In this document: positions 5,996 to 44,740 of the stretch, one piece after another
Numbering within the stretch: the stretch's first letter is position 1
Layout: every line of letters begins with the position of its first letter
Assembly: GCF_004369205.1 (NCBI RefSeq)
Contig: NZ_QFGA01000004.1
Span: 186,001 to 250,000, forward strand
Length of the DNA stretch: 64,000 nt
Reading direction: 5' to 3'
DNA from: Pelotomaculum schinkii
GTDB taxonomy: Bacteria > Bacillota > Desulfotomaculia > Desulfotomaculales > Pelotomaculaceae
Notes under the pieces: generated by a model
Told to the model about the DNA's origin: nothing
Databases searched by the model: none
Seen by the model: only the letters and a program-made list of their open reading frames with translations
Program-made: the position numbers and the translations under genes

Positions 5996-7159
5996 TTGGA
6001 ATCTAAGCAATCCTTCTTCAGGGGCAGGGGCGGCAGGCTCTTTTCGGTCCTGGCGGTTTTGATAGTGATCGTTTTTCTGGCCGGGGGAATTCTTCTGGCC
6101 ACCAATTACAAACACCTGGGCAACCTGGTGAAGGTGGTTACCCTGGTCCGGACGCAGTACCTCCAGACGGTTGACACGACCCAGTTGGTGGACGGCGCCA
6201 TTAAAGGGATGGTGGGTTCTTTAAACGACCCCTACTCGGTTTATCTGGACCCTAAAACTTATGCCCAGCTCCATGAGCAGATTAAGGGGTCCTTTGGGGG
6301 GTTGGGCATTCTGGTGGGAATCAAAGATCAGTACCTGACGGTGGTCAGAGCCTATAAGGGTACACCGGCTGCTAAAGCAGGCATTGTTGCCGGAGACGTC
6401 ATCACTAAAATCGATGACCGTGACGCCAGAGGGATTGATTTGGAAACCGCGATCAGCCTCATGCGCGGGGAAGTGGGCTCTAAAGTGACTCTAACCATTG
6501 ACCGGAAAGAAACGACCGAGCCCCTACAGTTCACCAGAGAGTTAATCCGGGAGGAAATCAGCGTTCCCACGGTAGAGAGCCAGGTACTCCCCGGCACGGC
6601 TATTGGCTATGCTGTGGTCAGCCAGTTTACCGAGCACACCTCCGAGGAGATGAAGGAAAACCTGGCCAAGCTGCAAAAAGAGCAGGTTAAAGGACTAATT
6701 TTGGATCTCAGGGACAACCCCGGCGGGGAGCTTATCGCTGCGGTTAACGTAGCCAAGAATTTTATCCCGAAGGGCCCCATTGTCTTTATCGACTACCGTT
6801 TTGGCAGGGATCAGGAGTTCTCTTCCGAGGGCCGGACGGCCCAGCTTCCCCTGATCGTGTTAATTAACGGGGGCAGCGCCAGCGCGGCGGAAATTCTGGC
6901 CGGGGCGGTAAAAGACACCGGCGCGGGGACTCTGGTCGGCGTCAAAACTTTCGGCAAGGGGATTGTGCAAACCGTATTTCCTCTCGATAACGGGGCCGGG
7001 TTGAAACTTACCACAGCCCGCTACCTCACGCCCAACCGCAACGACATCCATGAAATAGGCATCCAGCCGGACGTTCTGGTGCAACCGGAGGAGAATAGTG
7101 TCCTTGACGTACAGCTTGACCGAGCTGTTGAATTAATGAAGCAAAAGATTGCGGGATAA
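5996..7159 (+). CDS. ctpA: Carboxy-terminal processing protease CtpA (S41)
   Basis: A membrane-anchored, exported serine protease of 387 residues. An N-terminal membrane helix (residues ~12-34) is followed by a PDZ domain (~95-175) that gates the active site. The S41 catalytic domain has the nucleophile in NGGSASAAEILAGA and the general-base lysine in KTFGKGIVQ. Family members process signalling or cell-wall proteins. The start is TTG 5996 after AGGGCGGTG. In Bacillus the homologue ctpB is followed by minJ, as it appears to be here. Confidence 0.93.
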   Translation: MESKQSFFRGRGGRLFSVLAVLIVIVFLAGGILLATNYKHLGNLVKVVTLVRTQYLQTVDTTQLVDGAIKGMVGSLNDPYSVYLDPKTYAQLHEQIKGSFGGLGILVGIKDQYLTVVRAYKGTPAAKAGIVAGDVITKIDDRDARGIDLETAISLMRGEVGSKVTLTIDRKETTEPLQFTRELIREEISVPTVESQVLPGTAIGYAVVSQFTEHTSEEMKENLAKLQKEQVKGLILDLRDNPGGELIAAVNVAKNFIPKGPIVFIDYRFGRDQEFSSEGRTAQLPLIVLINGGSASAAEILAGAVKDTGAGTLVGVKTFGKGIVQTVFPLDNGAGLKLTTARYLTPNRNDIHEIGIQPDVLVQPEENSVLDVQLDRAVELMKQKIAG

Positions 7160-7170
7160 ATACTTTTACG

Positions 7171-7195
7171 GCCGTGGGTTTCCCCGCGGCTTTTT
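7171..7195 (+). terminator. Terminator after ctpA
   Basis: An 8-bp stem, GCCGTGGG (7171-7178) with CCCGCGGC (7183-7190) including one G-T pair, is followed by TTTTT. Confidence 0.88.
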
Positions 7196-7294
7196 AACAT
7201 GACCTGAAGCCAGTACTCGCTGCTTGTGATAAATTTAGGAGCACTTATTTTCAGGGTTGAATATTTTTGCCTGAGCTTGGATGAGGTGAAGGAG

Positions 7295-8548
7295 TTGTTT
7301 CCCTTCCTGCTGATAATCCCGCTAATCCTGCAAGCTTTTCTCGGCGCCTTTATGGACCCGCAGTTTTTATCTATTTTCCTGGTGGTAATGGTCTTAATCG
7401 CCGTTCAGTACAGACGTATGGAAAAAGTACGGGAAAGCTTTTTCGGGCGGGGCGGCGGGCGGATCTTCCCCAGTACCCTGGCTGCCGCCGGCTTTGGGCT
7501 GCTGGGGGGGTTGGCCGGCAGCATAGTGATGGTTGTAATTGGCCTGACGCTTTCCGAATCCGGGCTGATTTACCTGTGGCCGGTGGCAATTTTGTTGATG
7601 CTGATAAATATGCGGTTTTTGTGCTTTTCCTACGCCGGCGGGGTGTTGGCGCTGTCCAACCTGACCCTGGGTTTTCCTGATATTAACGTGCCGCAGATTA
7701 TAGCCCTGGTTGCCGTGCTGCATATGGTGGAGAGTTTTTTAATCCTGGCCAGCGGGCACCTGGGGGCGGTTCCGGCATACATCAAAGGGCATGGCGGTAA
7801 GGTTACCGGTGGGTTTACGCTGCAAAAATTCTGGCCTATTCCTATAGTTGTACTGGCGGTTGTGACCGGCGGCACGGTCGAAAACGGTATCAATATGCCG
7901 GAATGGTGGCCGCTGCTCAAGACGGGTGTGCCAGGCAATCCTCAGGACCTGATCTATGCGCTGCTGCCTGTGGTGGCGGGCCTTGGTTACGGTGACATCG
8001 CCACGGCCAGGAGCCCTCAGGAAAAAAGCCGTCTCACCGCGCTATTTCTTGGCGCCTACAGCCTGACCCTGCTGGTCTTGGCGGTACTGGCCCAGCATAG
8101 TGAGACATTGGCGCTGGCTGCGGCAGTATTCTCATTTTTGGGCCACGAGGCGGTTATTTTTGCCGGCCGGAGGATTGAAATCGTGAAGCCCCCCTTGTAC
8201 GTGCCGCCTGAAAAGGGAGTCAGGCTGCTTGACGTGCAACCCGGGGGGGCCGCCTGGCAGGCGGGTTTGCGTTCCGGAGATGTAATCCTGGCTTTGAACG
8301 GCGAAACGGTGGCTGGCCGCGACGCTTTATTCCAGCGCCTGAAGGGGACATTTTACCCCGTAACGGTAGATTACTTCAGCCACACGTCAAAAGAAAACCT
8401 GCGGGCCACCATCCGGCCGCCCGTTCAGGGGTTGAACTGGGGTCTGCTTCCGGTACCTGGGGAGGACGAGGACCAGTACGTCGAAATGATGACGACCGGG
8501 CCGTTGGGGCGGTGGCTGCAGCAATGGTGGGGTAAAATTAGAAGTTGA
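7295..8548 (+). CDS. MinJ-like polytopic membrane protein with C-terminal PDZ domain
   Basis: About 417 residues with many hydrophobic segments over the first ~330. A PDZ domain follows (~345-410), with VRLLDVQPGGAAWQAGLRSG and GDVILALNGE. MinJ bridges DivIVA and MinD to place the division site in Bacillus, and sits directly after the ctpB protease gene there, as here. The functional call rests on architecture and synteny, not on recognised MinJ residues. I prefer TTG 7295, 6 bases after GAGGTG; an earlier in-frame GTG at 7226 lacks a ribosome site. Confidence 0.75.
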   Translation: MFPFLLIIPLILQAFLGAFMDPQFLSIFLVVMVLIAVQYRRMEKVRESFFGRGGGRIFPSTLAAAGFGLLGGLAGSIVMVVIGLTLSESGLIYLWPVAILLMLINMRFLCFSYAGGVLALSNLTLGFPDINVPQIIALVAVLHMVESFLILASGHLGAVPAYIKGHGGKVTGGFTLQKFWPIPIVVLAVVTGGTVENGINMPEWWPLLKTGVPGNPQDLIYALLPVVAGLGYGDIATARSPQEKSRLTALFLGAYSLTLLVLAVLAQHSETLALAAAVFSFLGHEAVIFAGRRIEIVKPPLYVPPEKGVRLLDVQPGGAAWQAGLRSGDVILALNGETVAGRDALFQRLKGTFYPVTVDYFSHTSKENLRATIRPPVQGLNWGLLPVPGEDEDQYVEMMTTGPLGRWLQQWWGKIRS

Positions 8549-8574
8549 CACATTTAAAAAGATGGGGATATAAT
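8545..8574 (+). promoter_or_regulatory. Near-consensus sigma-A promoter for the cooT-like gene
   Basis: TTGACA (8545-8550) and TATAAT (8569-8574) match the consensus perfectly with an 18-bp spacer. The -35 box overlaps the stop codon of the MinJ-like gene. Transcription should start near 8581, giving a leader of about 117 bases. Confidence 0.9.
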
Positions 8575-8580
8575 CATCAC

Positions 8581-8697
8581 AGAGGCAGGCCAAGGAGGCC
8601 TGGACAGGGTTGACATCAGGTTGAAAAACAAAGCCACGAAGGCTCTGTCCCACCTGGGATATACCTTGGTGGTTTTTTTCAAGGGAGGTGTGCTTTG
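8581..8697 (+). ncRNA. Structured 5' leader with terminator, candidate riboregulator
   Basis: The leader shows these possible helices: CAGGCC/GGCCTG (8586-8591 with 8597-8602), GGACAG/CTGTCC (8602-8607 with 8645-8650) and AGCC/GGCT (8632-8635 with 8641-8644). CAGGT (8617-8621) can pair with ACCTG (8652-8656), making a pseudoknot. That pairing competes with a terminator stem, CCACC (8650-8654) with GGTGG (8668-8672), followed by seven T. The ribosome site and ATG of the cooT-like gene come directly after. This is the layout of a transcription attenuator. I could not assign it to a known riboswitch class. Confidence 0.6.
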
Positions 8698-8889
8698 ATG
8701 TGCGAGGCGAATGCTTACCTGAGAAAGCAGGGCGAAGAAGATGAACTGTTCCTGGAGATGGTTGACCATGTGCTTCCCCACGAAGATGGCCTGATGCTGG
8801 AGGATATCTTTGGCAAAAGGAAAATGATCAAGGCCAAGATCGTGGAGCTGGCTCTGGTAGACCACAAGATAATCCTGGAGCGGGCATAA
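8698..8889 (+). CDS. CooT family small protein (putative nickel binding)
   Basis: A 63-residue protein starting Met-Cys (MCEANAYLRK), with the compact beta-rich pattern of the CooT family. In Rhodospirillum CooT, a nickel-binding accessory protein of CO dehydrogenase, the N-terminal cysteine is a metal ligand. No CODH genes are in this window, so the role here is inferred from family only. The start is ATG 8698 after GGGAGGTG. It is a one-gene unit, with its own strong promoter and attenuator-like leader upstream and a strong terminator downstream. Confidence 0.75.
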   Translation: MCEANAYLRKQGEEDELFLEMVDHVLPHEDGLMLEDIFGKRKMIKAKIVELALVDHKIILERA

Positions 8890-8905
8890 CAGGCGGACTT
8901 TAATT

Positions 8906-8943
8906 CCACGGAATACCGGGTTTTGCCGGCGCCGTGGTTTTTA
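8906..8943 (+). terminator. Terminator after the cooT-like gene
   Basis: Nested stems CCACGG/CCGTGG (8906-8911 with 8932-8937) and CCGG/CCGG inside are followed by TTTTT. Confidence 0.9.
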
Positions 8944-8969
8944 TTTGGGAAAGGGTGGGAGAAGCGACG

Positions 8970-9578
8970 ATGAACCCGGTAATTTACCGCCCGGACCACA
9001 ACTTGAGCGAAATTAATAGTTTAGCTGAACTAAAAGACCTGACCGTGCGATGCGCTCGCTGCGCACTGCGGGACGGCTGTTCCAGGGTTGTTTTCGGAGA
9101 GGGAAATCCGAATGCGCGCTTAATGCTGATCGGTGAGGGACCCGGGGCGGATGAAGACCGGCTGGGGCGGCCTTTTGTGGGTAGGGCGGGCCAGCTGCTT
9201 GATAAAATCCTGGAAGCCATCAGCCTGGAAAGGTTTGCCCATACCTATATAGCCAATGTGGTTAAATGTCGTCCGCCCGGCAACAGGGCGCCGCGGCCGG
9301 AAGAGGCGCAAGCTTGCCTGCCCTGGCTCTACCGGCAGATTGAGCTGGTTTCCCCCGGTATTATTGTCCTTTTAGGAAACAGCGCTTTGCGGAACCTGGT
9401 TGATCCGGACGCCAGCATTACACCAATGCGAGGTCAGTGGCTGGTGAGTAAAAGCGGCATTAAAATCATGCCTACCTTTCACCCTTCCGCCCTGCTGCGG
9501 GATTCCGGCAAGAAGCGTCCGGTATGGGAAGATTTCCAGAAAGTAAGGGACGAATTCCTGAAACTCGCGGAATCCTAG
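8970..9578 (+). CDS. Type-4 (iron-sulfur) uracil-DNA glycosylase
   Basis: Removes uracil from DNA as the first step of base excision repair. The 202-residue protein has the family motifs GEGPGADEDRLGRPFVG and a C-terminal HPSALLR. The cysteines for a 4Fe-4S cluster are in CARCALRDGC, VVKCRPPGN and CLPWL. The start is ATG 8970 behind GGGTGGGAG. Family 4 enzymes are typical of thermophiles and many anaerobic Firmicutes. It lies between two terminators and appears monocistronic. Confidence 0.93.
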   Translation: MNPVIYRPDHNLSEINSLAELKDLTVRCARCALRDGCSRVVFGEGNPNARLMLIGEGPGADEDRLGRPFVGRAGQLLDKILEAISLERFAHTYIANVVKCRPPGNRAPRPEEAQACLPWLYRQIELVSPGIIVLLGNSALRNLVDPDASITPMRGQWLVSKSGIKIMPTFHPSALLRDSGKKRPVWEDFQKVRDEFLKLAES

Positions 9579-9601
9579 ATTTTACAAATAAAATTAATTT
9601 T

Positions 9602-9657
9602 AACCTCCCGGTACAAAAAAGGTTGCGGTTAAAGCCTTGTATCAGGAGGTTATTTTT
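9602..9657. terminator. Long hairpin between convergent genes
   Basis: AACCTCC (9602-9608) pairs with GGAGGTT (9645-9651), with an inner TACAA/TTGTA helix. ATTTTTT follows on the + strand. It most likely ends the glycosylase transcript and may also stop the convergent DUF2508 gene. Confidence 0.75.
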
Positions 9658-9681
9658 TCCTTGCGGTCCCAATGCCGCCAG

Positions 9682-10020
9682 CTACAAAGCCGTAGCATTT
9701 TTTATCTCAGTAGAACAGATTCCTTCACAAATTTCCTGGACAGGAGAAAACTCTGTATCCGGCCATGCAGTAATGCCCTCTTTTCTGGCCTGGTTCAGCA
9801 GGGCGATATATCGCCGCTCAGCTGCGTTGATTTTAAAAATGGCATATTCGGCCAGGTCTCCATCGATGTAGTCCAGTTCCTTTAAGGCCTGCCGCCATTC
9901 CTCACGAGCGTTTTGCACGGCGGCGTCCAGTTGAAGTGTCGATGTCTTTTCCACCATTATTTCCCTTATGCGGGACATTTCTGTTATAGGTATTGTTTTT
10001 AAGATTGACATTAAATTCAT
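9682..10020 (-). CDS. DUF2508 (YaaL-like) family protein
   Basis: A 112-residue, charged, mostly helical protein. The segment EEWRQALKELDYIDGDLAEY, then AIFKINAAERRYIALLNQAR, fits the DUF2508 pattern (a Trp, a [D/E]Y pair, then a KRY-type repeat). B. subtilis YaaL belongs to this family, which has no known function. It is the only clear minus-strand gene in the first 44 kb. The start is ATG at 10018-10020 (plus coordinates), 8 bases after GGGGAGG. Confidence 0.65.
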   Translation of the reverse strand: MNLMSILKTIPITEMSRIREIMVEKTSTLQLDAAVQNAREEWRQALKELDYIDGDLAEYAIFKINAAERRYIALLNQARKEGITAWPDTEFSPVQEICEGICSTEIKNATAL

Positions 10021-10181
10021 CCCAATCACCTCCCCTATATTATATTTTTTACTAGATGGAAATAGAAGGGCCTTCTACAGTAATATACAATAATTCCCAT
10101 ATATTTCATCCGACTATTCATTCAATATTTAGACAGCATTTTAAGCATAATATCAGCAAGAAAAACAATGGGGTGATTGGT

Positions 10182-11681
10182 TTGGAAAGTTCTTCACACA
10201 GTGGCGGTAAAAGAAAATTAATTTTAATTCTTATCATCATGGCCATCATCCCTTTTCTTCACGCGTGTGGCAAAAAGGAGGCGCAGAGAAAGCCGGCCAG
10301 TAACGGCGGCGGCCAGGAAATCAAGATAGCGGTAAGCCTGGCCAGCATGGAGAGGGATGGCAATCAGATTATAAAGAAGACCATGAACGGGCGTACGGGT
10401 CAGACCGATCAGCAGGGCGGGCAAAACGGTCAGCAAAGTGGACAGCAGAGCACACAAAGCAGCAAGAACGAGCAGGATGTAGTACCGGTCCAGACCCAAG
10501 GTGGAGGCGCCCAGGGGAATCAAGGCGGCGGTCAGCAAAAGATCAGCATCACCTGGTTGGATGCCAGGAACGACCCCATACAGCAAGAAAAAGACCTGGA
10601 CCAACTGGCCGGCCAGAATATTAAGGCTGTCATTCTCCAGGCGGTTGACCCGGCGGCGGCTCCCAGGCTTGTGCGCAAGCTGGCCCAGTCCAATATCAAG
10701 GTGATTGCTTTTGAGACACTCCCAACAAATTCCCCTGTAGACGGCTATATTGCTTCAGACCACGCCAGGGCCGGGGAGCTTGAAGCACGCTACCTCCTGG
10801 AAGCGGCACAAGGCAAATCAACACCGATGAATACTGTCCTGCTCATGGGAGATAAAAACGACCAGACATCGAAGGAAATAGCCTCCTCGGTACTTGCTAA
10901 CCTCAATGGCCAGGCTCAAGTAAGGGTGGTCCTGGCTAAAAACCACGATGGCGGCGATCCGCAGCTCGCAACGGCAACCCTTGACCAGGCGCTGGTGAGC
11001 AGCAACAACCAAATTGACGCTGTGTTAGCCACCGACGGCAAGATGGCTGCCGCCGCCGCCGAGATGTTGAAAAGCAGGGGTTTGAGCCAGCGGGTAATTA
11101 CCGTGGGCGTGGGCGCCGACCAGCAGGCCTCCCGCGCGCTGGCGGCGGGTGACCACAAAGCAGAGGTGGACCTCATGCCCGAGGTCATGGCTCAGCATGC
11201 TTTTGACGCCGCGGTAGGCCTGGCCACCACCGGGCACTGGCAGTATGAGAAACAGGTCAAAAACGGAGATTTTGACGTGCCTGCCAAGATTACCCCGGTG
11301 CGTTTAGTGACAAAGGACGAGTCATACCTACTGGAGCAGCGCTGGGGCAAACTGACAGGCCAGGAGGGACAGCAGGGGCAGCAAGGTGGTCAACAGCAGG
11401 GACAGCAGCAAGGACAGCAGCAAGGACAACAACAGGGACAACAACAGGGACAACAACAGGGACAGCAACAGGGACAGCAACAGCAAGGGCAGCAAGGGCA
11501 GCAAGGGCAAAGCGGACGCACAACAACCCTGCGGGTAACCACCCAGGATGGAAAGACAGTTGAGATGCAGATTAATGGGGAAATCAAAAAAATTGAAACC
11601 GTCGACGGAACAGGCCCCCAAGCAGGCGGCGGTCAAAACGGCGGCGGAGGCCAGTCAGGTTCCGGCGGGGGCGGAAGTTAA
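10182..11681 (+). CDS. Substrate-binding lipoprotein (sugar-type) with Gln-rich repeat tail
   Basis: About 499 residues. A lipoprotein signal ends in FLHAC, with the modified Cys at residue 29. A low-complexity linker precedes a periplasmic-binding-protein type 1 domain (about 120-380) like those for ribose or xylose, e.g. ITWLDARNDPIQQEKDLDQL and GYIASDHARAGELEARYLL. A Q/G repeat of about 50 residues follows (11364-11515), then a short domain and a Gly/Ser tail. No ABC permease or ATPase lies nearby, so it may act as a sensor or scavenging receptor. The start is TTG 10182; GTG 10173 is possible. Confidence 0.8.
   Translation: MESSSHSGGKRKLILILIIMAIIPFLHACGKKEAQRKPASNGGGQEIKIAVSLASMERDGNQIIKKTMNGRTGQTDQQGGQNGQQSGQQSTQSSKNEQDVVPVQTQGGGAQGNQGGGQQKISITWLDARNDPIQQEKDLDQLAGQNIKAVILQAVDPAAAPRLVRKLAQSNIKVIAFETLPTNSPVDGYIASDHARAGELEARYLLEAAQGKSTPMNTVLLMGDKNDQTSKEIASSVLANLNGQAQVRVVLAKNHDGGDPQLATATLDQALVSSNNQIDAVLATDGKMAAAAAEMLKSRGLSQRVITVGVGADQQASRALAAGDHKAEVDLMPEVMAQHAFDAAVGLATTGHWQYEKQVKNGDFDVPAKITPVRLVTKDESYLLEQRWGKLTGQEGQQGQQGGQQQGQQQGQQQGQQQGQQQGQQQGQQQGQQQQGQQGQQGQSGRTTTLRVTTQDGKTVEMQINGEIKKIETVDGTGPQAGGGQNGGGGQSGSGGGGS
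11364..11515 (+). repeat. Tandem 12-bp repeats encoding Gly-Gln-Gln-Gln
   Basis: Roughly ten near-identical units of the type CAACAGGGACAA or CAGCAAGGACAG encode GQQQ in frame within the lipoprotein gene. Such arrays change length easily by slippage. They are translated, with no spacers, so they are not CRISPR. Confidence 0.93.
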
Positions 11682-44389: not shown

Positions 44390-44740
44390 GGGGGCGTAAA
44401 GGTTTCGACGGGGGAAGCGGTGGCAGGAGGAGCGAGCCGGGGTTCCATCAGCCCGCAACACGGTGGAAAACTATAATTGCCAAGAACGAATACGCTTTAG
44501 CAGCTTAATTGCTGTCTAACCTTCTACCCGCGCTGGGCCCGTGGCCCGGGCTAGGGGGTCATTGAAACGGGCTGGCTTGAACCCAATTCTCGGAGGGTTC
44601 AAGTAAGATTCATCGAGATAGTTCCAACGGAGCCCGGCTGTAGGCGCCCGCGGAGCGAAACCTAAACTGCAGCCTGCGCTCGGAGATACTCCTGTGGTCG
44701 GTCCTTCGGACGGTGGGTTCGATTCCCCCCGCCTCCACCA
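44390..44740 (+). ncRNA. ssrA: Transfer-messenger RNA
   Basis: About 351 bases. The 5' end GGGGGCGTAAAGGTTTCGAC pairs with the 3' end CGCCTCC, followed by the encoded CCA. The T-arm GGTGGGTTCGATTCCCCCCG is intact. The tag frame runs GCC 44479 to TAA 44508 and encodes AKNEYALAA. The 3' end (44729-44745) is repeated at 59957, so this gene was the integration site of the downstream island. Confidence 0.97.

Follow-up and report, generated by a model that had tools for sequence, protein, structure and literature searches.

A conserved two-hairpin leader motif, a candidate transcription attenuator, ahead of cooT and other nickel and cobalt genes in Bacillota

The window analyzed here is a stretch of 64,000 nucleotides from Pelotomaculum schinkii (contig NZ_QFGA01000004.1, positions 186,001 to 250,000). 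Its plus strand carries cooT at 8698..8889, encoding a 63-aa product placed by family assignment among the CooT nickel-binding proteins (PF10133, E 1.4e-25), as a first-pass annotation of the DNA had suggested. The product combines the profile match with an N-terminal MC containing Cys2, a residue invariant in 38 CooT homologues. An AlphaFold2 model of it (pLDDT 91.7) matched the fold of CooT 6fan with an E-value of 4.8e-09. Nickel binding is known for R. rubrum CooT (PMC6006190); judged from its sequence, the window protein is a CooT-family member and putative nickel binder.

A sigma-A promoter lies upstream on the same strand (8545..8574), with TTGACA at 8545-8550, an 18-nt spacer and TATAAT at 8569-8574. 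It matches the consensus at 12/12 positions and was the sole promoter-like site found by a promoter scan of 7000-10000. With the transcription start placed at about 8581, the leader is ~117 nt long, which agrees with the promoter and leader length first annotated. Hairpin P1 (CAGGCC-AAGGA-GGCCTG, plus strand, 8586..8602), with a loop of the form ANGRA, occupies the extreme 5' end of the transcript and is separated by a 29-nt linker (8603..8631) from P2 (AGCC-ACGAA-GGCT, 8632..8644), a candidate antiterminator with the family form CC[AYGRA]GG and a dG of about -5 kcal/mol in isolation. An intrinsic terminator of the structure AAAGCCAC-G-AAGG ... CCTT-G-GTGGTTTT plus a T run (8630..8679) follows, its hairpin at 8630-8676 and its seven T at 8673-8679, and the ribosome-binding site GGGAGG stands at 8683-8688, again as annotated. 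The terminator was computed at -24.3 kcal/mol. Its 5' arm takes in P2's loop as well as the P2 5' arm; since AGCCACGAAGG takes part in both structures, only one of P2 and the terminator can form at a time. The leader as a whole gave a fold z-score of -2.28, with 3/200 shuffles equally stable.

The first-pass annotation had drawn the leader with three helices and with a pseudoknot of CAGGT (8617) with ACCTG (8652) that excluded the terminator. P1 and the small hairpin at 8632-8644, here called P2, were retained; the GGACAG/CTGTCC helix was seen in the nearest relatives only. The pseudoknot was given up as not conserved: its partner reads CCCTG in the nearest relatives and has no counterpart in other leaders.

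Eighty cooT loci served as the starting sample. Many Desulfotomaculum-type cooT leaders contained two ANGRA-loop hairpins followed by an overlapping terminator, while at some cooT loci, e.g. that of Desulfofundulus australicus, the leader was lost. The covariance search that the first-pass annotation had proposed was run, and P1 and P2 covaried strongly among homologous leaders. In a MAFFT alignment of 15 leaders, which is independent of any covariance model, 96.6% of cells were paired and double changes were present in 7/10 pairs. A first covariance model was built from this alignment, and a second, obtained after realignment of 74 motif sequences, was used for the phylum. The 74-sequence alignment, fitted to the covariance model and so biased towards it, held 163 double-change cells and gave a covariation of 0.703 vs 0.230 after shuffling, a value reached by 0/500 shuffles; slid controls gave at most 0.152, and all 6 P1 pairs covaried on both sides. 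Covariance-model E-values are rough, and the hits in the statistics include training genomes. The window leader, whose own sequence was in the training set, scored 66.8 bits under the final covariance model, with an E-value of 1.2e-12 in a search of its genome.

The P1 loop was five nt long in 88 leaders and four nt (NGRA) in 24. The script that collected P1 accepted only loops closing with GRA, which therefore cannot count as independent evidence; the A at position 1, found in 83/88 pentaloops, can. Position 2 was free (T35 A23 G15 C15), and 58/88 pentaloops ended in GAA. P2 followed CC[A-C/T-G-R-A]GG, i.e. a loop of A[CT]GRA, in 138/142 leaders. Between P1 and P2 lay 0-107 nt (median 43). 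In the collected leaders P1 began a median of 11 nt past the -10 box, and a promoter scoring at least 10/12 was present in 32% of leaders vs 2% of control positions. In 136/142 homologous leaders the minimum-energy fold had the terminator pairing with the P2 5' arm, the median energies over the 142 being -24.5 kcal/mol for the terminator and -5.1 kcal/mol for P2 alone. A minority of leaders, at loci L200 and L202-L205, contained P2 only, directly after the promoter. At L199:2066-2227, minus strand, two serial attenuators (P1-P2-terminator, then a second P2-terminator) precede one gene.

The covariance model located the motif in 55/113 genomes of the class, mostly ahead of genes other than cooT, and the second model located it in 101/398 genomes of the phylum, about a quarter of the sample, in up to nine copies each. 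Rather than being peculiar to cooT, the window leader is a single instance of an RNA motif shared by many nickel/cobalt genes. Behind the motif were found cbiM/nikM, cbiQ, genes for nikA-type binding proteins and nik-type ATPases, fmdE, cobN, trmO-like genes and cooT. The 102 downstream proteins included CbiM (22), SBP_bac_5 (13, all of them matching NikA models), CbiQ (9), ABC ATPase (8), FmdE (6) and TrmO (4), and more rarely CobN, ZnuA and Peripla_BP_2 (3 each) and FecCD, FlpD, DUF4198 and [FeFe]-hydrogenase (2 each). Since the motif precedes genes of nickel/cobalt transport and handling, it marks a Ni/Co regulon. Three readable copies were present in the window's genome, before cooT, cbiM (L197) and a nikA-type gene (L198). 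In G162, probably Carboxydocella thermautotrophica, a copy precedes a cbiM gene, and cooT follows some 1 kb further on. In the neighbourhoods of motif operons in ten genomes no common regulator gene adjoined the operons, and only transport and metal genes were seen.

Rfam contained no matching family for the window leader, which the first-pass annotation could not match to the NiCo, cobalamin or c-di-GMP riboswitch consensus, and gave no match for the motif at nine homologous loci at E<=1. The only Rfam hits near related motifs were cobalamin and molybdenum riboswitches. No description of the motif was found in the open literature, subscription literature being outside the scope of that search. 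In family f46, taken as Thermacetogenium-like partly on the basis of its named relatives, P2-only units are followed after a few hundred nt by a cobalamin riboswitch of like orientation. Such pairs precede cobalt-related genes at L202:688-1238, L203:1363-1996, L204:973-1522 and L205:1507-2163 (all minus strand), and the serial arrangement would provide a two-input control. At L211:1523-1925, minus strand, a molybdenum-cofactor riboswitch is followed by an (A)NGRA attenuator before an iron-sulfur/[FeFe]-hydrogenase-like gene.

That the leader is an attenuator linked to nickel or cobalt, as first proposed, is well supported by the covariation, the terminator overlap and the Ni/Co gene context. 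As to how it works, the balance tips slightly towards a transcription attenuator of the Ni/Co regulon in which an RNA-binding factor holds P2 when nickel or cobalt is low. RNA polymerase would make P1 first and P2 next. Without the factor, the stronger terminator (about -24 vs -5 kcal/mol) would form, the P2 5' arm pairing with the arm downstream, and would stop transcription short of cooT. Under scarcity of nickel or cobalt a trans-acting factor, most likely a protein, would recognise the (A)NGRA loops, with P1 as the loading site and P2 bound next; P2 held in this way would stay closed, the terminator would be blocked and the gene expressed. The P1 and P2 loops are conserved alike. Because P1 lies outside the terminator and a covarying helix would not fix the identity of a loop, the same factor would recognise both loops in the terminator-excluding form. 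Loop recognition in that conformation would therefore turn the gene on, and as most targets import or handle nickel or cobalt, binding would be expected when the metals are scarce. The hairpins, their covariation, the terminator overlap and the motif's occurrence before many Ni/Co genes are computed features; a protein factor, binding in the ON state and low Ni/Co as the signal are what we infer. Counting against this explanation are the absence of each of ANTAR, CsrA and CooT from some motif-bearing genomes, the window P2 stem of only 4 bp, a broken P2 pair at L001 (a sister genus member), and downstream genes with no obvious nickel need, such as the response regulator at L144 and the [FeFe]-hydrogenase at L211.

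The switch that the first-pass annotation had envisaged would sense a metal or other ligand directly. On such a reading P1 and P2 would bind it in the manner of tandem guanidine-II hairpins. In guanidine-II (mini-ykkC) RNAs a linker of variable length joins two small hairpins whose short loops are conserved, an arrangement like that of the motif, and none of the proteins tested is present in every motif-bearing genome. The loops of guanidine-II are ACGR, however, and those of the motif (A)NGRA, with position 2 of P1 free, so that a kissing CG is not conserved; no guanidine-II match was returned by Rfam, and the downstream genes are of other kinds. The NiCo (czcD) riboswitch resembles the motif in its Ni/Co gene context and in transcription termination, but is built as a four-helix junction, whereas the motif consists of two independent hairpins ahead of importers and gave no hit with the Rfam model of this riboswitch. 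The genes that the known NiCo riboswitch activates encode exporters (PMC7266159). A ligand of the motif would stabilise the ON form, yet its targets are importers, and the metal itself as ligand would thus have the wrong sign. A 4-bp hairpin is too small for a likely aptamer, and P2-only leaders placed directly after the promoter fit a protein site better than a small-molecule aptamer. Direct sensing was for these reasons judged unlikely. The motif resembles an antiterminator-protein site more than a riboswitch, and an RNA-binding protein would be the likeliest factor. Among such proteins, CsrA might be considered since CsrA/RsmA sites share A-N-G-G-A in a hairpin loop with the motif, whose loop is often ANGGA, and the window genome carries one csrA. 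P1 and P2 as CsrA sites would nevertheless be extremely improbable: the motif does not require GGA, as most P1 loops end in GAA and the window P2 loop is ACGAA, it would act by transcription attenuation, and csrA (PF02599) is absent from many motif-bearing genomes. CsrA was rejected as the factor on loop sequence and csrA absence.

Greater likeness was found to the dual-hexaloop RNAs bound by ANTAR proteins (EutV, NasR and AmiR targets), of which the leader could be a pentaloop variant, with an ANTAR protein signalling metal state; we consider this rather unlikely. Shared with those RNAs are a tandem pair of small hairpins close to where the transcript begins (P2 only in a minority of leaders), a second hairpin overlapping the terminator (136/142 leaders), A at loop position 1 (PMC3369931) and a many-copy regulon. 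The motif loop ATGAA is similar to the ANTAR hexaloop AATGAA, and 62/70 strong-motif genomes encode an ANTAR protein. Against this, the loops have 4-5 nt rather than the 6 of the A1/G4 hexaloop, the third pentaloop position being G and the fourth A or G, and ANTAR targets are defined by hexaloops and short linkers (PMC3369931). The linkers, 29 nt in the window and long and variable in the family, also differ from those of eut, which span 5-12 nt and whose lengthening abolishes the response (PMC3369931). Many sampled genomes are MAGs, in which gene absences can be assembly gaps; ANTAR (PF03861) was missing even at E 0.1 from 11 motif-bearing genomes, including the single-contig G442. Published ANTAR regulons concern nitrogen, and the two ANTAR genes of the window genome lie within a glutamine-synthetase cluster whose leaders carry canonical hexaloops. 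At this locus (L083, G000:C1:1036000-1055999, minus strand) dual hexaloop leaders with terminators (loops AGCGTT/AATGAA) occupy the intergenic regions 6122-6299, 7632-8025 and 9358-9669, before glutamate synthase and glutamine synthetase genes. Hexaloop and (A)NGRA leaders thus occur in the window's genome as two analogous systems coexisting in one cell, and the window leader probably acts in an ANTAR-like way, though its loop code differs and its factor probably does too. CooT itself, as an autoregulating nickel-responsive RNA-binding antiterminator, is a doubtful candidate and quite improbable. It binds one Ni per dimer with a Kd of 9 nM (PMC6006190), motif-led operons often contain cooT, and CooT was encoded in 54/55 motif-bearing genomes of the class. 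Across the phylum the odds ratio of co-occurrence with the motif was 33-60 for CooT vs 6-11 for ANTAR; with the most stringent threshold (E<1e-7) the two values were 34 and 39. Strong-motif genomes (E<1e-5) encoded both proteins in 55 cases, only CooT in 8, only ANTAR in 7 and neither in 0. CooT is thus missing from 7 of them, including the single-contig G424, and weak CooT matches in four CooT-lacking motif genomes were YqfC-like sporulation proteins, as judged by eye. The protein is moreover acidic (pI 5.0), and its fold search returned only CooT and, weakly, RimM (E 0.13), with no CsrA.

A DUF3842 gene stands immediately upstream of cooT at many loci (L041, L042, L047, L048 and others), forming a conserved pair. 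DUF3842 was rejected as the common factor: most of the motif-bearing genomes tested have it, but G114 and G143 lack it; it is also frequent in genomes that encode CooT but carry no motif, and it is not of an RNA-binding type.

For the trans-acting antiterminator favoured here, the broader proposal that the motif is the operator of a new class of Ni/Co-sensing RNA-binding antiterminators, neither ANTAR nor CsrA, attenuating metal uptake across anaerobic Bacillota families, was given an even chance. The CODH/ACS and hydrogenases of acetogens, sulfate reducers and syntrophs need nickel. Less than half of the NikABCDE-bearing organisms were found to have NikR, which implied NikR-independent regulation (PMC2667541). 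In these three groups the motif is a concrete candidate for such control, and it may explain Ni/Co regulation in microbes without the known nickel repressor. Like NikR regulons and cobalamin riboswitches, it is associated with nikABCDE, nik/cbiMNQO and cobalt genes; it differs as control by a leader RNA, sometimes in series with a cobalamin riboswitch. From it a Ni/Co regulon can be predicted for each genome, and it can serve as bait in a search for the regulator.

At L211:3260-4087 CooT and DUF4198 domains are fused, with a His-rich stretch; similar CooT frames of 266-328 aa occur in a few other genomes, most of them from the family of L211. Elsewhere in the window, a tmRNA gene at 44390-44740 was the only Rfam match at gathering score, and an ORF at 10056-11681 resembles a substrate-binding protein and carries, towards the C terminus, a long repeat rich in Q and G (QGQQQGQQ...).
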